Part shown: positions 23,000 through 31,354 of the stretch, in pieces
Layout of the letters: each line of letters starts with the position of its first letter
Position numbering within the stretch: the first letter of the stretch is position 1
The notes under the pieces: generated by a model
The model's database searches: none
What the model was told of the DNA's origin: nothing
The model's input: the letters and a program-made list of their open reading frames with translations, nothing else
Translations under genes and position numbers: made by a program
Origin: Candidatus Krumholzibacteriia bacterium
GTDB lineage: Bacteria; Krumholzibacteriota; Krumholzibacteriia; LZORAL124-64-63
Length of the DNA stretch: 33,865 nt
Assembly (NCBI GenBank): GCA_024762975.1
Contig: JANTGJ010000022.1
Coordinates: 1-33,865, forward strand
Reading direction: 5' to 3'

Positions 23000-24234
23000 G
23001 GGGTCACCCCGCTCCCGTTCAGGTCCGCGCTGTCGAAGGTGATCTCCTCGGGAGACCCCGTCTCGGATAGCTCATCGAGGTTCCGGTACCTCGGTTCCGC
23101 GCCACTGGACTCCAGCAACTCGTTGACCTCTTCCTTCAGCTGTACCATCCGCAGCTCGCGCCCGACGGTCAGCCGCGTCATACGCTGCTCCTCGTTCAGC
23201 AGCGCCTCCTGTTCGGCCAGCAACCTCTTGTGCGGCCGGATGTCGATGAATGCCTCGAGGAGAACGTCCTCGTCGTGCCATCGCACGGGGATCACCGATT
23301 TCTGGACGGGGATGGTTTCGCCGCCGGCAGTCAGAACCTTTCTTTCGGCGGAGTCGACATTCTGGTGAAAGTCCAGGATGGGGCATGCGTCGACCGCGGT
23401 CGGACAGAAATTACCGGAGCACACTTGCCCCATGATCTGCTCGCGCGACTTGCCGATCAACTCCTCGGCATAGCGATTTACGAAACGAACGACCTTGGTG
23501 CGGTCCACGATCACTATCCCGAAGGGAACCTGCTCAAGGATGGCTTCATTCGCTTCCAGTACGCTCTGCAGGTTGGCCGAAATCTGGTCGCGCTCTCCTA
23601 TGGCACGCCGGATGGCAGACGTGCCGATCACCAATAGACCACAACCAAGTAGCCAGGCGATCAGGTGGAAATGGATCTGAGGCCTCCAGGCCGGGTCCGA
23701 GAATGCGAGAATCGCATTCAGCGGCACCAGGACCGAGGCGGCTCCCCGCAACCCGTCGGCTCGCTCCCCTGGTTGGTGGCAGGCGAGGCAGGCCGGCTCA
23801 TCGTAGACCGGCACCATCCAACGCAATTGTTTTTCTCCGAATTGTGTCTGTACATCGGTAACGGCCTGGGACCCGTCCACCGCGCCCAACGCTGCCGCCT
23901 CCCAGGCGTCCGGAGCGTTGAGCCCGGATGAGCCCGGTAGTCCGCGCCAGTGGACATGGGTTCTGCCATACTCTGCGCGGTGTCCGAATGGCCGTCCTTC
24001 GAGGTGCCGGGTCCGGTCCTCGGCGTAACGCAGCTCGGCCTGCTGGACGGCCAGACTCGTCGTCAAGCCGTCACGATTTACCTGGGTTCGCCACAGCGAA
24101 ACGCCCACCAACGCGGTCCACACCGCGATCAGGGTGCCGATCACGACGTACAGTTCACGTGAACGCACATAGTAGAGGTTGTATTTTTGCATCCAGGATT
24201 TCACGAAATCGTCGCCGCCCGGTTTGCGTTTCAA
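22996..24234 (-). CDS. Membrane sensor with CxxCH (c-type haem) periplasmic domain and Cys-rich PAS domain
   Basis: The 412-residue protein has a transmembrane helix at ~29-47, a periplasmic DUF3365/Tll0287-like domain (~50-185) with WMVPVYDEPACLACHQPGE, and a second helix at ~190-207. The CLACH motif (149-153) is a c-type haem attachment site. A PAS domain (~225-330; ILEQVPFGIVIVDRTKVVRF) carries Cys272, Cys277 and Cys284, a pattern found in PAS proteins of the form C.E..CP....CP. A coiled coil follows, and there is no kinase domain. It overlaps the hybrid kinase gene downstream and probably feeds a redox or ligand signal to it. The first codon taken here is TTG 24234; GTG 11 or ATG 15 are possible starts, and no Shine-Dalgarno site decides between them. 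Confidence 0.85.
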   Translation of the reverse strand: MKRKPGGDDFVKSWMQKYNLYYVRSRELYVVIGTLIAVWTALVGVSLWRTQVNRDGLTTSLAVQQAELRYAEDRTRHLEGRPFGHRAEYGRTHVHWRGLPGSSGLNAPDAWEAAALGAVDGSQAVTDVQTQFGEKQLRWMVPVYDEPACLACHQPGERADGLRGAASVLVPLNAILAFSDPAWRPQIHFHLIAWLLGCGLLVIGTSAIRRAIGERDQISANLQSVLEANEAILEQVPFGIVIVDRTKVVRFVNRYAEELIGKSREQIMGQVCSGNFCPTAVDACPILDFHQNVDSAERKVLTAGGETIPVQKSVIPVRWHDEDVLLEAFIDIRPHKRLLAEQEALLNEEQRMTRLTVGRELRMVQLKEEVNELLESSGAEPRYRNLDELSETGSPEEITFDSADLNGSGVTP

Positions 24235-24324
24235 AGGTGCGCCTCGCCCTTGAGAACGATTGCGCAGCCGTACTACCGACGCATATTTATCGGCCCGGAT
24301 TGTCCGGAATTAAGGTATTCATTA

Positions 24325-24362
24325 CAAAAAAACGCCCCATTCCCGGATCGGAACAGGGCGCA
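24325..24362 (-). terminator. Rho-independent terminator after mlaD
   Basis: On the minus strand GCGCCC and TTCC pair with GGAA and GGGCG around a short loop, followed by a run of seven T residues. It lies 16 bases beyond the mlaD stop and ends the mlaEFD operon. Confidence 0.88.
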
Positions 24363-24377
24363 ATCGGCAGAGACGAT

Positions 24378-25271
24378 CTAGAAATCGACCAGATTCACCT
24401 TGAAAAAGCGCTTGGGGTTGCGGCGCATGGCTTCGGTCAGGCGTTGCACCGATTCCAGGGTCGAGTCGGCACGCGCGTACAGACCCGGATCGTTCAACAG
24501 CCGCGCCGCCGAACCATCGCCCTCGTCCAGCTTGATCAGAATGTCCCCGAGGCGCTCGGCGGAAGCCTCCAACTTGACCATCAGGCTGTCGGCGCGGGAC
24601 ATCGTCGCCGACGCATCGTCCAGGGTCTCGGTGACCTGGCCCGACTCGAGCAGCGCGGCCAACTGTCGCGACGCCGTCTCCATATGTCCCAACGTGCGCC
24701 CCAGCCGGGCCTCGTTGTCCTGCACCAGCGCATCGATACGACCGACCGCCGCATGCGCTGTTTCCAGCGTTTCGACGACCCGGCCTTCGGACTGGATCTC
24801 GGTGATCAGGGTATCCAGTTTCGCAGCCAGCGCGGTCATCTGCGTCAACGCGCTACCGGCCGCATCGGTCATCGCGGCAATCGACGCCGTCGCCCGCCCC
24901 TGAAAAACATGCCCCACCGGCACGGCCGCACCCGAACCCGGATCGATTTCGATGATGACCTCACCCACAATGCCCTTGGTTCCCAGGGAGACCTGCGCAT
25001 CCGTGCCGAGTTTCACACTCTCGTTGATCGACAGGTCCACGCGCACGAAACCGTCCTGGATCGCGTAATTCTCGACCTGCCCCACCCGAATGCCCCGTAC
25101 CTGGACACGGTCCCGCAGCTGCAGGCCCTCGACCGAGGGGAAATCGACCTGGTACATGGACATGCCGCTGGAAAGCGACACGTTCTTGAACCACATCATC
25201 CCCAGGATCAAGAACACGAAGGCCAGGATCACTGCGAGTCCGACTTGGATTTCCTTCGCTCGATTTTCCAT
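24378..25271 (-). CDS. mlaD: MlaD/MCE-family phospholipid-transport substrate-binding protein
   Basis: The 297-residue protein has an N-terminal membrane anchor (EIQVGLAVILAFVFLILGMMW) and one MCE domain (~38-118; YQVDFPSVEGLQLRDRVQVR, GIRVGQVENY, VSLGTKGIVGEVIIEI). A long helical tail with coiled-coil character (~125-285) should extend into the periplasm. MlaD hexamers bind lipid and dock on the MlaE permease. GGAG lies 6 bases before the ATG. It is the last gene of a three-gene operon (24 bases after mlaF) and is followed by a terminator. It is longer than E. coli MlaD because of the helical tail, as in many non-proteobacterial MCE proteins. Confidence 0.94.
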   Translation of the reverse strand: MENRAKEIQVGLAVILAFVFLILGMMWFKNVSLSSGMSMYQVDFPSVEGLQLRDRVQVRGIRVGQVENYAIQDGFVRVDLSINESVKLGTDAQVSLGTKGIVGEVIIEIDPGSGAAVPVGHVFQGRATASIAAMTDAAGSALTQMTALAAKLDTLITEIQSEGRVVETLETAHAAVGRIDALVQDNEARLGRTLGHMETASRQLAALLESGQVTETLDDASATMSRADSLMVKLEASAERLGDILIKLDEGDGSAARLLNDPGLYARADSTLESVQRLTEAMRRNPKRFFKVNLVDF

Positions 25272-25295
25272 TCCCGTCTCCAGGTCAGAAGGCGT

Positions 25296-26120
25296 TCAAA
25301 AGGCTCCGAGGGGACCCTCGGCGTTGCCTTCGATAAATTGCCGCACCATCGGATGCCCGGTGGTCCGGACCTCGTCGACAGTGCCCGTATAGACGATCCG
25401 GCCGCGACTGAGCATCGCGATCCGGTCGGCGATCTTGAAAGCGCTGGGCATATCGTGCGTCACGACGATGCTCGTGACACCCAGGGTCTTTTGCAGCTTG
25501 ATGATCAGGTCGTTGATCGCGTCGCCCGTGATCGGATCCAGGCCCGTCGTGGGCTCGTCGTACAGGATGTACTCCGGCTCCATGACGATGGCCCGGGCCA
25601 GACCGGCGCGCTTCTTCATACCGCCCGACAACTCGCTGGGCAACTTGGTTTCGGCACCCTCGAGCCCGACCATGGCCAGGCATTCACAGGCACGGGCGCG
25701 GACCTGTTCCTCGCTCCAGTTCGTATGCTCCTGCAGCATCAGGCCCACATTCTCACAGATCGTCATCGAATCGAACAGCGCCGCGCCCTGGAACAGGAAA
25801 CCGAACTTCTTGCGCAATTCCATCAGGTCATTCCTGCGCAAGCCGGTGACCGAGTCCCCTTCGATCCAGATCTTTCCGGCATCCGGCTCCAACAACCGCA
25901 CGATATTCTTCAGAAGAACCGATTTGCCCTCGCCGCTGCGGCCAATGATGACCAGGGTCTCGCCCTTGCTGATCAGCAGGTCGCAGTCTTCAAGCACCTG
26001 CTTGGATCCGAATCGCTTCGAAACGCCCTCGATCACGATGCCCCGGTACGAGGACGGATCCGCCACCCGCTGATCGGGAGCCGCCGGGATCTCGTACTTC
26101 GTGTTGCGGACGTCGTTCAA
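25296..26120 (-). CDS. mlaF: MlaF-type ABC transporter ATP-binding protein
   Basis: From TTG 26120 the product has 274 residues. Walker A is GRSGEGKS (60-67), the signature is LSGGMKKR (164-171), and Walker B is YILYDEP (184-190) followed by TTGLDPITGD, the sequence typical of MlaF/Ttg2A ATPases. It powers lipid movement by MlaE. I chose TTG because GGAG lies 5 bases before it and it falls 10 bases after the mlaE stop. A longer frame from an in-frame ATG at 26192 overlaps mlaE and adds Ser/Trp-rich sequence with no family similarity. Residues 1-28 are a short non-conserved extension before GIVIEGVSKRFG. Confidence 0.94.
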   Translation of the reverse strand: MNDVRNTKYEIPAAPDQRVADPSSYRGIVIEGVSKRFGSKQVLEDCDLLISKGETLVIIGRSGEGKSVLLKNIVRLLEPDAGKIWIEGDSVTGLRRNDLMELRKKFGFLFQGAALFDSMTICENVGLMLQEHTNWSEEQVRARACECLAMVGLEGAETKLPSELSGGMKKRAGLARAIVMEPEYILYDEPTTGLDPITGDAINDLIIKLQKTLGVTSIVVTHDMPSAFKIADRIAMLSRGRIVYTGTVDEVRTTGHPMVRQFIEGNAEGPLGAF

Positions 26121-26130
26121 CTTCGCTCCG

Positions 26131-26919
26131 TCACTTCTGGAACAGGATCTGGAAAAGGATGATGGCCAGGACATAGTCCGCCACCAGAACACTCAAACAA
26201 CTGCTGACCACGGCCGTCATGGTCGAGGTGCCGACTCCTTCGGCGCCGCCCTGCGTGTTCATGCCGAAATAGATGCCGCTCAGCGCGACGATGCCGCCGA
26301 AAATGAACGATTTGACGAGCCCGCCCAGGACATCACTGTGGAAGTAGAACATGCGCAGACCTTCGATGAAGGTGCTGCTGGTGACGTCCAACGTGGCCAC
26401 GGAAACCGCGTAGCCGCCGACGATCGCGATGGCATCGCCGAAAACCGTGAGTACCGGGAACATCAGCACCGTGGCCACGAAACGCGGCATGGCCAAATAG
26501 CGCACCGGGTCGATGGCCATGATGCTCATCGCATCGAGCTGCTCGGTCACCTTCATCGTGCCCAGTTCGGCGGCGTAGTTCGCGCAAAGGCGCGAGCCCA
26601 CCACCAGCGCGATCAGCACCGGCCCCAGTTCGATGAACACGGATTTGGAGATCATCGTACCCAGGAATTTCATGGGCACGTAGGCTTCCATCTGGTAGAC
26701 GCCCTGCACGGCCGTGACAGCGCCCACGAAAATCGACGTGGTCACGACCAGCGGCAGCGACCCGATGGCCACGATGTGCATCTGCTCACTGATTTCGCGG
26801 CGCTGGGACCAGGCATGCGGCAGCTGGGCGATGATCGCCCACAACAGCAACGAGCCACGGCCCGCTACCGCCAGATTCGCCAAAGCGAACCGTCCCACCT
26901 GTCGGATCATTTGAATCAT
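26131..26919 (-). CDS. mlaE: MlaE-type ABC transporter permease
   Basis: The 262-residue integral membrane protein has the MlaE signature: LVVTTSIFVGAVTAVQGVYQ, then KSVFIELGPVLIALVVGSRL, then ELGTMKVTEQLDAMSIMAIDP. About five hydrophobic helices are visible, ending in VVSSCLSVLVADYVLAIILF. It forms the inner-membrane channel of the Mla lipid pathway with MlaF and MlaD. It is the first gene of the operon and is followed 10 bases later by mlaF. The ATG at 26919 has no clear Shine-Dalgarno site, but a TATATT box sits 7 bases upstream, so a leaderless message is possible; ATG 26910 is an alternative start. Confidence 0.94.
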   Translation of the reverse strand: MIQMIRQVGRFALANLAVAGRGSLLLWAIIAQLPHAWSQRREISEQMHIVAIGSLPLVVTTSIFVGAVTAVQGVYQMEAYVPMKFLGTMISKSVFIELGPVLIALVVGSRLCANYAAELGTMKVTEQLDAMSIMAIDPVRYLAMPRFVATVLMFPVLTVFGDAIAIVGGYAVSVATLDVTSSTFIEGLRMFYFHSDVLGGLVKSFIFGGIVALSGIYFGMNTQGGAEGVGTSTMTAVVSSCLSVLVADYVLAIILFQILFQK

Positions 26920-26926
26920 GCCCGCG

Positions 26927-26932
26927 AATATA
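26927..26932 (-). promoter_or_regulatory. Possible -10 box giving a leaderless mlaE transcript
   Basis: TATATT on the minus strand ends 7 bases before the A of the mlaE start codon. Transcription would then begin at or next to the start codon. No Shine-Dalgarno sequence lies between. A -35 partner is not obvious. Confidence 0.35.
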
Positions 26933-27078
26933 AGGGCGTCGGGGTACGAAGTCTACCGCCGGCGCGATCGGACAGGTCCGGGTGGACAAGCGAACACACA
27001 TCAGGCATGCTGTTTCCCGATAGGGTCACGGTCTTCACTTCATTCCAGCCGCTGGAGTCCAGATCCCCGGGAGGAAGC

Positions 27079-27636
27079 ATGGTCCACGATGGAGTCGAAC
27101 CCGATCCCCGCGTCACGGTAGCCACGACCGACCGCGTACACGAGGGCCCCCTGCTGAAGATCGATCTGGAGGATGTCCACCTGCCCGGCGGCAAGCGCGC
27201 CCTGCTGGAGACCATCAAGCACCCGGGCGCGGCGGCGGCCCTGCCCTTCCTGCCCAACGGCGACGTGCTGATGGTACGGCAGTATCGCCACGCGCTGGGC
27301 GGCTGGATCCTGGAAGTCCCGGCCGGCAAGCTGGACGACGGCGAGCCTCCCGACCAGTGCGCCCGCCGCGAGGTGGCCGAGGAGGTCGGCTACGAGGTAG
27401 GTGATTTACGGCCTCTCGGAGCCATCTTCACCACTCCCGGCTTTACCGACGAGGTGATCTGGCTGTACGAAGCCCATGACCTGAAGGAAGTCGGCACCGC
27501 ACACGAGGACGACGAAGTGATCGAGGTCCTGAAAGTGCCGTTTGAAGAGGCGCTACGTGCTGTGCGCGACGGACGAATCCGGGACGGCAAGTCCGTTTCC
27601 ACGATCCTGCACGCCGCGATGCAACGGGCTGATTGA
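27079..27636 (+). CDS. Nudix hydrolase, ADP-ribose pyrophosphatase type
   Basis: The 185-residue protein hydrolyses a nucleoside diphosphate linked to another moiety, most likely ADP-ribose. The Nudix box (83-105) is complete: G83, E89, then REVAEEVG (97-104) with the metal-binding glutamates. The preceding segment LMVRQYRHALGGWILEVPAG and the following FTTPGFTDEVIWLYEA are typical of the NudF/ADPRase subgroup. ATG 27079 is preceded by GGAGGAAGC. The frame is open much further upstream, but that part runs antisense to mlaE and is not coding. It converges with the MBL-fold gene. Confidence 0.94.
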   Translation: MVHDGVEPDPRVTVATTDRVHEGPLLKIDLEDVHLPGGKRALLETIKHPGAAAALPFLPNGDVLMVRQYRHALGGWILEVPAGKLDDGEPPDQCARREVAEEVGYEVGDLRPLGAIFTTPGFTDEVIWLYEAHDLKEVGTAHEDDEVIEVLKVPFEEALRAVRDGRIRDGKSVSTILHAAMQRAD

Positions 27637-27678: not shown

Positions 27679-28617
27679 TCAGTCGGCCGCTCTCAGATGG
27701 CCGGTCATGCCCCTCAACGTCTGGCGGGTGAATTGCTGCTCTCGGATCCGGAGATCCGGGGGCAACTCTTCGATGCGGGCGTAGTGCCTGTCTCGTTGCA
27801 GCAACTCTGCCGTGATCGCGTCGAAACACTCCTCCAGAGCGGGTCGGTCCTCCTCGTCGGGCAATCCCCCGCGCCGCGCACCGACTTCACGTGCCGTCTC
27901 CAACCACATTTCATGCTGTGCACGCGCATTGCGCAACAGTTGCATCCGGGCGCCGGTGTACCGTCCGTGGTGGGCGAAGCACAGTTGCCCGGGGAATGGA
28001 TCGAGGGCCATCATCCGTTCGATGGACTCGAAGGCCACGGCGGGGAAGAAGCGCGGTGGCGTCGCCGGACGCAGGTAGTATTCGTCCGTGTCCGAGCCCT
28101 TGCCCAACGTCGAGAACGTGCCCGCGGCCTCGCCCAGATACAGCGTACCTTCGTGCAGAAACGAAATGTGATGCGGCGCGTGGCCCGGAGTCGGAATCAC
28201 TTCGACCCCGGCCTCCCGCACCAGGTCATATCCGACGAGGTGGTCCTCGGCTACCGGACCGGGCTGACCATATACCTCGGCCGCATGCCCCAACACCGAC
28301 AACGAACCCTGCCACAGACGCCCGGGATCGGCCAGGTGGGGGCGGCCCCGCCGGTGACAGACAACCTTCGCTTCGGGCCATCGTCGCAGGATCTCGTGCG
28401 TCGCTCCGCCGTGGTCCAGGTGGATGTGCGTCAGCAGTACGAAATCCAACGCTCCGACCCCGGCCGCTTCCAGCTCGGCGATCAGATGATCGGCCGTCGC
28501 CGGCGGCCCCGGATCCACGATGAAACTGAACTCCTCGGACTGCGACAACCAGCAGCTGATAAAGCGGCGTTGCCCGGGCAGATCCTGGTCCAGGTCGATC
28601 AGCTTCAGTACGTTCAT
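27679..28617 (-). CDS. Metallo-beta-lactamase-fold hydrolase
   Basis: This 312-residue cytoplasmic protein of the glyoxalase II-like group has the dinuclear metal motif THIHLDHGG (H64, H66, D68, H69), a later His in PTPGHAPHHISF, and a C-terminal His in CFAHHGRY. The position that usually carries a bridging Asp (GD.....) reads LYLGEAAGTF, so Glu or another residue may take that role. The last ~90 residues are helical. The ATG at 28615-28617 overlaps the dnaB stop as ATGA, so it is translationally coupled to dnaB. Its substrate cannot be deduced. Confidence 0.88.
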   Translation of the reverse strand: MNVLKLIDLDQDLPGQRRFISCWLSQSEEFSFIVDPGPPATADHLIAELEAAGVGALDFVLLTHIHLDHGGATHEILRRWPEAKVVCHRRGRPHLADPGRLWQGSLSVLGHAAEVYGQPGPVAEDHLVGYDLVREAGVEVIPTPGHAPHHISFLHEGTLYLGEAAGTFSTLGKGSDTDEYYLRPATPPRFFPAVAFESIERMMALDPFPGQLCFAHHGRYTGARMQLLRNARAQHEMWLETAREVGARRGGLPDEEDRPALEECFDAITAELLQRDRHYARIEELPPDLRIREQQFTRQTLRGMTGHLRAAD

Positions 28618-30047
28618 CTGGCCAGATCCGCGAAGCGGGTGAATTCCTTGTGGAAGTGCAGATCGAACTGGCCGATGGGGCCGTTCCTCTGCTTGCCGAT
28701 GATCAGCGTCGCCATGTTCTCCAGCGACGGGTCCTCCGGGTTGTAGACTTCCCCGCGGTAGATGAACATCACGACATCGGCATCCTGTTCGATGGCGCCG
28801 GACTCCCGCAGATCGCTCAGCATCGGCTTGTGGTCCCCGCGCGCTTCGACACCACGCGAAAGCTGACTCAGGGCAAGCACCGGCACATTCAGATCCTTGG
28901 CCATGCCCTTCAGGTTTCGCGAAATGACCGAGATCTCCTGCTGCCGGTTCTCCTGCCTCCCGCCGCCGGTCATCAGCTGCAGATAGTCGATGATGATCAG
29001 ACCCAGACCGTGCTGCATCTTCAGCCGCCTGGCTTTGGCCTTCATTTCCAGTACCGAGATCCCCGAGGTATCGTCGATGTAGATCGGCGCGCGCGCCAAC
29101 TGGTCGCAGGCCTGCGTCAGCCGTGGCCAATCCTCGGCGCGCAGCTTGCCGCGGCGCAGGTTGTGCAGGTTGAAGCTCGCGCTCGAGCCCAGCATTCGCA
29201 TGACCAACTGCTCGCGCGACATTTCCAGTGAGAATACGCCCACGCCCTGTTTCGCCTGGACAGCGACGTTGTAGGCCAGATTCAGCGCCAGGGACGTCTT
29301 TCCCATCGAGGGTCGCGCAGCCAGAATGAGCAGATCCGAAGGTTGCAGGCCGCCGGTGCGGCGATCCAGTTCGGAGAACCCCGTGCGCAGGCCCGTTACA
29401 TCGTCCTTGGATTGGAAAGCTTCTTCGATGGACTTGAAAGTATCGGGGACGATCGCATCGACGCCCGTGAAACCGCCGGAACGCGACTCCTCACTGATAT
29501 CGTAAATTTTGCCCTGCGCGCGGTCCAGAATTTCGGACGCCTCTTCCTGAGCATCGAACGCCTCGGTCGCGATATTCGTCGAAACTCCGATCAGGTTCCG
29601 CAGCATCGCCTTTTCGCGCACGATTCCGGCGTGGTAGATCACGTTCGCCGCGGTGCCCATCATGCCCGACAGGTCGATCAGGAAGTCCATGCCGCCGACG
29701 ACCTCGAGCAGATCGACTTTTTCGTGCTTCTTGTGCTTGGGCAGGTCGAGGAATTCCTCGCCCGACTTCTGCAACAGGTCGGCCACGGTAATCGGATCAA
29801 TCGCCTGGTCGTTCTCGTACAGGCGGCACATGGCGCGGAAAATGAGCTGATGTTCGCGGCGGTAAAAATCCACGTGGGTGATTTTTTCGCGCGCCAGACC
29901 AACGGACTCGCGGTCGACCATCGCCGCACCGAGAATGGCCTGCTCGGCTTCCTCGCTCCAGGGGGGCTGACGGTCCTTGGGCAGGCGGTCGTAGCCGAAA
30001 GAAGGACCGGCGGGACGAGGCTGCATTTCCATGTGTGTCACTTTCAT
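28614..30047 (-). CDS. dnaB: Replicative DNA helicase DnaB
   Basis: The 477-residue protein is the hexameric 5'-3' helicase of the replisome. Its N-terminal domain (~28-135; PPWSEEAEQAILGAAMVD) interacts with primase. The RecA-like motor has Walker A ARPSMGKT with K250, GVFSLEMSREQLVMRML, and the Walker B region LGLIIIDYLQLM. It continues with ISRNLKGMAKDLNVPVLALSQLSRGVE and DLRESGAIEQDADVVMFIYR. Length is usual. There is no intein. AAGGG lies almost touching ATG 30047; GTG at codon 3 would have better spacing (8 bases), so the true start may be two codons later. The leader contains a small hairpin (30073-30088), and a DnaA-box cluster lies 220 bases further upstream. Confidence 0.97.
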   Translation of the reverse strand: MKVTHMEMQPRPAGPSFGYDRLPKDRQPPWSEEAEQAILGAAMVDRESVGLAREKITHVDFYRREHQLIFRAMCRLYENDQAIDPITVADLLQKSGEEFLDLPKHKKHEKVDLLEVVGGMDFLIDLSGMMGTAANVIYHAGIVREKAMLRNLIGVSTNIATEAFDAQEEASEILDRAQGKIYDISEESRSGGFTGVDAIVPDTFKSIEEAFQSKDDVTGLRTGFSELDRRTGGLQPSDLLILAARPSMGKTSLALNLAYNVAVQAKQGVGVFSLEMSREQLVMRMLGSSASFNLHNLRRGKLRAEDWPRLTQACDQLARAPIYIDDTSGISVLEMKAKARRLKMQHGLGLIIIDYLQLMTGGGRQENRQQEISVISRNLKGMAKDLNVPVLALSQLSRGVEARGDHKPMLSDLRESGAIEQDADVVMFIYRGEVYNPEDPSLENMATLIIGKQRNGPIGQFDLHFHKEFTRFADLAR

Positions 30048-30430
30048 ACCCTTGCGGGTGCCAAACAGTGATCGCGAAACCGTTCGCGGTACAATCTACA
30101 TCCATCCCTGCCGGGACGAGAAAAATCGGTGTCGCCAGGCTCCGAAACGAAGGATTCCAGGTTCGATTTCCCCATGAACGACCCACTTTACCACTCGGAT
30201 CGCCCCCCCTCCAGTTCCTCGCTGGATTCTTTCGATTTAGCCGGGGAAAAGCCTGTTGACAGGCGGTGGATAACTCCCCTGCAACCTGGGAAAAACTCGT
30301 GGACAACCCGCGAATCGAGTGGAAAAACCCGGGAAATCCAGAGATAATACCCGCGTTCTACGCGATAACCGTCATTCTTTTCAACCGACTGGTTGTCCAC
30401 AGCCACGTGGATAACTCGAAATGCCAGGCC
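30048..30430. other. Divergent intergenic region between dnaB and methyltransferase
   Basis: This 383-base gap contains no convincing gene. It holds the DnaA-box cluster (30265-30414), a TTGACA hexamer (30255-30260) and a hairpin CGCGAA/TTCGCG (30073-30088) in the dnaB leader. The central part, roughly 30330-30395, is somewhat AT-richer than its surroundings. Confidence 0.6.
30265..30414. promoter_or_regulatory. Cluster of DnaA boxes, candidate origin or DnaA-regulated region
   Basis: Four 9-mers are within one or two changes of the DnaA box TTATCCACA: TTATCCACC (30265-30273, minus), TTGTCCACG (30298-30306, minus), TTGTCCACA (30393-30401, plus) and TTATCCACG (30406-30414, minus). The last two lie 4 bases apart and face each other. 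A weaker TTTTCCACT lies near 30318 on the minus strand. Four such sites in 150 bases of intergenic DNA, next to dnaB, are unlikely by chance in GC-rich sequence. DnaA boxes can serve oriC, a titration site, or DnaA control of dnaB; the sequence alone does not decide. Confidence 0.65.
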
Positions 30431-31354
30431 ATGACCGAACGAGCCGACATCACCGGATTGCTGCACCGTCTGCAGGAATCGCCCCACCCCCCACGTGTGG
30501 GTGCGGGGCCGAGCCAACTGCCCTGGAACGATGCGGAGTTCAGCAAGCGGATGCTGGCCGTACATCTGGATCCGGAGACGCACATGGCCAGCCGTGCCCC
30601 CGACGTGATCCACGCCCACGTCGATTGGCTCGAAGCGCAGCTCGAAGTGGCGCAGGGATTGCGCAAACCGGCCAGCGGCTGTCGCGTACTGGACGTCGGT
30701 TGCGGCCCGGGGCTGTACTGCCACGAACAGGCGCGGCGCGGTATGCCCTCGGTCGGATTCGACTTCGCCCCCGAACCCTTGCGTTGGGCGCGGGAAACCG
30801 CAGAGTCCGAGAAACTGGACTGCCGCTTCCTCTCGGCCGACCTGACGGCGCTTCCCCCCGATTTCGCTGAACAGATCGGCCCCCAGGAGGCCATCACTTT
30901 CTGGTTCGGCGAGTTCCACTCCTTCGATGCCGGACAGGCCGCGGACTTCCTGGTTCGCCTGGCCGCATGCCTGGTGCCCGGCGGATTGTTCATCCTGGAG
31001 TATCAACCCTACGACCTCTTCGTGCAGGAGGACAGCGCCGACTGGACAGTGCACTCGAATTCGGTTTTCTGCGACCGCCCCCACCTGTGGCTGCAGGAAT
31101 TCGGCTGGGACGAGGACGCCCAGACCGAGATCCATGTCCACTGGGTGATGGACGCGGAGTCGCCGGGCGTGCAACGATATGTCCAATGCCACCGGGCCTG
31201 GACCGACGAGCAGCTCGTACAGATGCTCGCGGCGGCCGGCCTGGAAAGCTTCGTCTTTCATCCGCCGATTACCGGCGTGAGTGAGGAGTTCGAATTCCCC
31301 GTGATCGTAGGCCGCAAATCAGCAACAAGGAATGTCACCGATGAGGATGCGTAA
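30431..31354 (+). CDS. SAM-dependent class I methyltransferase
   Basis: The 307-residue protein has motif I VLDVGCGPG (86-94) followed by LYCHEQARRG, an acidic strand end in GFDFAPEPLRWARE, and post-motif LVRLAACLVPGGLFILEYQP. These define a Rossmann-fold SAM methyltransferase; the substrate is unknown. ATG 30431 begins MTERADITGLLHRLQESP; the frame is open upstream through the DnaA-box region but has no family-like sequence there. No strong ribosome-binding site is visible. The end of the gene overlaps the start of the transporter gene, so both are probably one transcript. Confidence 0.88.
   Translation: MTERADITGLLHRLQESPHPPRVGAGPSQLPWNDAEFSKRMLAVHLDPETHMASRAPDVIHAHVDWLEAQLEVAQGLRKPASGCRVLDVGCGPGLYCHEQARRGMPSVGFDFAPEPLRWARETAESEKLDCRFLSADLTALPPDFAEQIGPQEAITFWFGEFHSFDAGQAADFLVRLAACLVPGGLFILEYQPYDLFVQEDSADWTVHSNSVFCDRPHLWLQEFGWDEDAQTEIHVHWVMDAESPGVQRYVQCHRAWTDEQLVQMLAAAGLESFVFHPPITGVSEEFEFPVIVGRKSATRNVTDEDA

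Follow-up and report, generated by a model that had tools for sequence, protein, structure and literature searches.

The DNA between dnaB and its divergent neighbor in this Candidatus Krumholzibacteriia genome carries a cluster of DnaA boxes, which raises the question of whether the locus is a replication origin placed beside the helicase gene or a region through which DnaA controls helicase expression. The window, meaning the whole stretch of DNA analyzed (33,865 nucleotides), is one entire contig (C22) of an incomplete genome of 3.81 Mb in 265 contigs. The replicative DNA helicase gene dnaB (28614..30047, minus strand) was assigned by profile search, with NF004384 and TIGR00665 above cutoff. 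Where a phylum was given, the named nearest relatives of this DnaB were mostly Candidatus Krumholzibacteriota or Krumholzibacteriia; single records were labeled Gemmatimonadales, Gemmatimonas, Latescibacterota, or Fibrobacter.

RESULTS

An array of DnaA-box-like sites in the dnaB leader

The cluster reported upstream of dnaB by the first-pass annotation is present and is larger than described there, with about eight DnaA-box-like sites at 30242-30414. The boxes lie in the interval first given, and the end facing dnaB had been drawn too short, as a further site occurs at 30242-30250 on the minus strand. Positions with a minus sign below are counted from the predicted extended -10 motif of dnaB.

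30185..30193, minus strand: predicted extended -10 motif of dnaB, TGGTAAAGT, conserved in an alignment of 25 leaders
30242..30414, minus strand: whole DnaA-site array of the dnaB leader, defined by box matches and conserved in relatives
30242..30250, minus strand: site TTTTCCCCG, -57 from the -10 motif
30265..30273, minus strand: DnaA box TTATCCACC, one mismatch, position -80
30286..30294, minus strand: weak in-phase site TTTTCCCAG, placed by register only
30298..30306, minus strand: site TTGTCCACG, two mismatches, position -113
30318..30326, minus strand: site TTTTCCACT, two mismatches, position -133, overlapping the -35 of the predicted divergent promoter
30339..30347, minus strand: weak site TTATCTCTG, placed by register, overlapping the -10 of the predicted divergent promoter and possibly only that
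30393..30401, plus strand: DnaA box TTGTCCACA, one mismatch, opposite orientation
30406..30414, minus strand: DnaA box TTATCCACG, one mismatch, position -221
30320..30348, plus strand: predicted methyltransferase promoter, divergent from dnaB, with TGGAAA and GATAAT 17 bp apart, from sequence pattern
30431..31354, plus strand: methyltransferase-like gene, divergent neighbor of dnaB, kept beside the array in relatives

Boxes were scored against the consensus TTATCCACA. No perfect match to it occurs in the array of the window, and matches with at most one mismatch number three in the array and only one elsewhere in the 33.9 kb. As these four compare with 3.05 expected in the whole window, it is the clustering that is unusual and not the total. 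With the motif TTNTCCMC, which was picked after the sequence had been inspected, six sites were found within 200 bp of the dnaB leader, and none of 300 sequences simulated from the window with a first-order Markov model had a cluster of more than three (the maximum was 0 in one simulation, 1 in 230, 2 in 65, and 3 in 4). Across the rest of the genome, a pattern of three sites in a row found nothing; its only matches, two overlapping ones, were at the dnaB leader. A stricter two-box pattern gave zero matches in the genome.

The surrounding genes were described earlier as having the codirectional layout expected at an origin. Leftward transcription does hold for dnaB, the kinase genes, and leuS. 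The layout is nevertheless not clean, because a Nudix gene inside 26101-27636 and its neighbor at 23928-26162, both to the left of the site, run rightwards. That neighbor (plus strand, 744 aa) was without any Pfam or NCBIfam match in the profile search and has relatives conserved near dnaB in Krumholzibacteriota. The gene directly behind dnaB (27679-28617), formerly labeled mla in error, encodes a metallo-beta-lactamase-fold protein, which occupies the same place in many relatives. On the other side, the methyltransferase-like gene is followed by a gene for a DASS-family transporter.

The array is conserved within the family

We compared 17 genomes of the family, including our own, in 16 of which the region was readable; the remaining one (G011) gave no match for dnaB or for the methyltransferase. 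All 16 readable genomes carry three to seven forward sites and at most one reverse site in 420 bp, whereas the background density is 0.11 per 420 bp (284 sites in 1,087,780 bases of two relatives). The two dnaB leaders and one further place, L194 3685-3828 (G038 C25), were the only spots in this 1.09 Mb sample with three or more sites clustered on one strand.

One-mismatch boxes were similarly enriched in 24 Krumholzibacteriota leaders, with 58 found versus 1.15 expected and at least one in 22 of the 24. The idea that the array is a general feature of bacterial dnaB genes was rejected on two counts: 56 leaders of other lineages held 7 such boxes versus 4.8 expected, and the eleven genomes from other families of the class held 0 to 2 sites each, both orientations counted.

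A triple-array pattern matched in 7 of the 17 genomes of the family (f1), giving 17 matches, of which 13 were at dnaB, 2 on the 3' side of dnaA (G011 and G012), and 2 elsewhere (G007 C93 and G012 C32). Outside the family there were five matches in 3 of 11 genomes, two of them in G018 and none at dnaB, and the reversed control pattern gave three matches, all in G012. Inspection by eye of the open reading frames around the triple arrays of G012 C32, G025 C30, and G019 C44 found no recognizable replication genes.

Sites are phased relative to a conserved -10 element

To place the sites relative to dnaB, 27 leaders were aligned, and two of these (L051 and L069) were kept out of the position counts, as other genes split dnaB from the array there. 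In the other 25, the key places of the extended -10 are strongly conserved (T in 23, G in 21, T in 22, A in 25, and the final T in 23). Upstream of this motif we counted 125 forward versus 9 reverse sites, with peaks at -57/58, -68/69, -101/102, -112/113, -132/133, -153/154, -209/210, and -220/221; the leaders share ancestry, and these counts and positions are not independent events. The best period was 10.8 to 10.9 bp over 108 sites in 21 well-anchored leaders, a set that leaves out L051 and L069 as well as L070, L071, L072, and L074, whose -10 anchors are poor. The regularity of the 13 positions used by at least two leaders was matched by none of 5,000 random sets. In three of the poorly anchored leaders (L071, L072, and L074), the spacing between the sites and the aligned -10 differs. 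The majority base reached a frequency of 0.82 in site columns versus 0.54 in the others, where site columns are defined by the motif itself.

DISCUSSION

The array as a probable DnaA-responsive control region of dnaB

The conserved array very probably serves to control transcription from the dnaB promoter, and we are fairly confident, on the pattern of sites and their conservation, that it acts as a DnaA-responsive control region of that promoter. DnaA-controlled dnaB expression had been offered in the first-pass annotation as the alternative to an origin; its standing is raised by a phased spacing that is locked, family-wide, to a conserved promoter element, and the regulation itself is a prediction. 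The boxes stand at a set distance from a predicted promoter, and the genome encodes a standard DnaA with the standard DnaA helix-turn-helix domain. Transcription of dnaB would start ~7 bases past the predicted -10, which puts the center of the nearest site ~68 bp upstream of the putative start.

On the other side of the array, the TGGAAA and GATAAT pair, 17 bp apart, probably forms the methyltransferase promoter, and DnaA on the array would be expected to cover its -35. The -10 core of this divergent promoter, which reads ATTAT on the opposite strand, survives in 19 of the 25 sequences; four of these (L057, L059, L062, and L063) retain the core and have lost the remainder of the DnaA-site motif.

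We picture DnaA, probably in its ATP form, binding successive boxes, most of them weak and almost all in one orientation, that repeat approximately every 10.8 bp. The resulting oligomer would lie on one face of the helix, end ~68 bp upstream of the predicted dnaB start, and most likely activate dnaB; it would also cover the -35 of the methyltransferase promoter on the other side and may repress that gene. If dnaB is activated through DnaA on the array, then helicase supply would follow DnaA activity, as we propose, and the most likely role of the array would be to link that supply to the timing of replication.

The sign of the effect is a separate matter, and the evidence leans modestly toward activation. 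The opposite, that DnaA on the array represses dnaB and so limits helicase when DnaA is abundant, is a rather unlikely reading, although several Bacillus subtilis genes are repressed by DnaA (PMC4447404, cited in part) and the array is close to the promoter. The nearest site is upstream of the core promoter and not over it, and in Mycobacterium tuberculosis the DnaA mutant I282T, with less binding upstream of dnaB, underexpresses the gene (PMC7738170, cited in part).

Genomes in which other genes follow the array

In three genomes of the comparison (G001, G039, and G008), the methyltransferase gene, array, and -10 are intact, and other genes then follow, so that dnaB is not directly behind. 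Loss of the array in G001 and G039 was considered and rejected, as the array adjoins the methyltransferase gene in both, with other genes behind it. G039 has a RhuM-family gene between the array and dnaB. Behind the array of G001 are a DUF5343 gene and a HEPN_Swt1 gene, which are the PADLOC candidates PDC-M34A and PDC-M34B, together with an anti-phage-type dGTPase; dnaB of this genome is on a separate contig (C79), and its adjacency to the array is presumed. G008 has a gene for a beta-helix protein in this place, and dnaB was not found in that genome. The inserted genes of all three run in the same direction as dnaB when read from the array promoter.

The position directly behind the dnaB -10 looks like an insertion hot spot (L230 3969-6630 in G001 C16, L069 8914-9963 in G039, and L232 3292-4461 in G008), holding either candidate defense genes (PDC-M34A/B and the anti-phage-type dGTPase, or the RhuM-family gene, which matches PDC-S05) or the beta-helix gene.

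These genomes bear on the idea that the array acts as a reservoir for DnaA, or as a switch of its nucleotide state, in the manner of datA or DARS sites and is near dnaB by chance, or that the methyltransferase gene is its main target. Sites of the datA and DARS type alter the nucleotide state of DnaA together with IHF or Fis. It is true that the array stays with the methyltransferase gene in the three genomes having genes between array and dnaB, and that some boxes are inside the predicted methyltransferase leader. However, a reservoir would have no need of a set spacing from the dnaB -10, and the -10 on the dnaB side is kept even in the displaced cases, which makes this explanation improbable.

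It is also possible to extend control of dnaB by DnaA into a fuller proposal, which we put forward only tentatively: a family-wide DnaA filament promoter, in which some ten weak, phased sites would fill cooperatively, making dnaB transcription a sharp readout of ATP-DnaA and at once switching off the divergent methyltransferase gene. Inserted anti-phage genes might exploit such a promoter, as insertion between the array and dnaB would couple their expression to replication.

The chromosomal origin is expected at dnaA

The first-pass annotation had put first a possible unannotated origin beside dnaB. The dense, mostly one-directional cluster with its ~11 bp period does resemble origin regions where DnaA oligomerizes (PMC10316083, cited in part), and the interval between dnaA and dnaN is absent from our assembly. 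Here, dnaA is on another contig (C150), divergent from an open reading frame that resembles rnpA by eye, with two perfect TTATCCACA boxes just upstream. The assembly breaks between dnaA and dnaN: C150 ends 103 bases past dnaA, and C128 begins ~160 bases before dnaN. As the presumed origin of relatives is the dnaA-dnaN interval, our genome's own origin would be missing from the assembly. In G001, of the same genus, this interval has a textbook-like arrangement of TTACCCACA-TTATCCACA followed by AT-rich DNA, and that of G011 is similar.

Relatives have box clusters and their softest DNA at both sides of dnaA. Among 23 of them, all have at least two boxes 5' of dnaA, and 15 have at least one 3' of it. 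In all 22 genomes compared, the minimum duplex energy was lower in the dnaA flanks than in the dnaB leader; the 3' flank alone was softer in 21 of these (G005 being the exception). The dnaB leader has the box cluster of an origin, but no adjacent soft, AT-rich unwinding element was found there in the 22 genomes or the window, in which the softest leader 60-mer scored 80.3, above the contig first percentile of 79.0. No GC-skew switch was seen at dnaB in the window, where skew is negative on both sides of the site, nor in 180 kb of G013 or 253 kb of G038. Skew does not decide the matter, because it is weak everywhere and the dnaA contig of G013 has no clear switch either; that of G038 was covered for its first 40 kb only. 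Given the location of dnaA, the softer DNA around it, and site distances held in register with the promoter -10, we reject a chromosomal origin, or a second origin, beside dnaB as very improbable.

Relation to known systems

The principle that DnaA controls dnaB is already known; what is new is a long array of phased sites that has been conserved throughout a family. Our searches of open-license PubMed Central papers turned up no report of a phased array at dnaB. In M. tuberculosis, the region upstream of dnaB is one of the five top DnaA-binding sites by IDAP-seq (PMC7738170, cited in part). Both cases have a DnaA site upstream of the replicative helicase gene, shown by IDAP-seq there and predicted here, where the sites form a long array conserved across a family. 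For Caulobacter crescentus, which belongs to another phylum, dnaB is listed in the DnaA regulon with predicted DnaA boxes upstream, as in our genome, and the portion of the review drawn on does not mention a phased array (PMC8203912). At the oriC of Thermotoga maritima, complex formation is greatest with two boxes that point the same way and lie 2 bp apart, a period of 11 bp (PMC10316083, cited in part). The multiple boxes and ~11 bp period are shared; however, the boxes flank an unwinding element there and lead to a promoter here, and the softer DNA in our case is at the dnaA flanks and not on the array side.

DnaA control of dnaB has thus been reported for single species in two distant phyla, and in the present case it seems to be a fixed trait of a whole family within an uncultured phylum. 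The geometry of the sites is like that of origin oligomerization regions, yet it is attached to a promoter. The 16 genomes are natural variants in which the number of phased DnaA sites required for control of transcription could be examined, and the same family bears on whether helicase supply may be tied to DnaA activity more widely.
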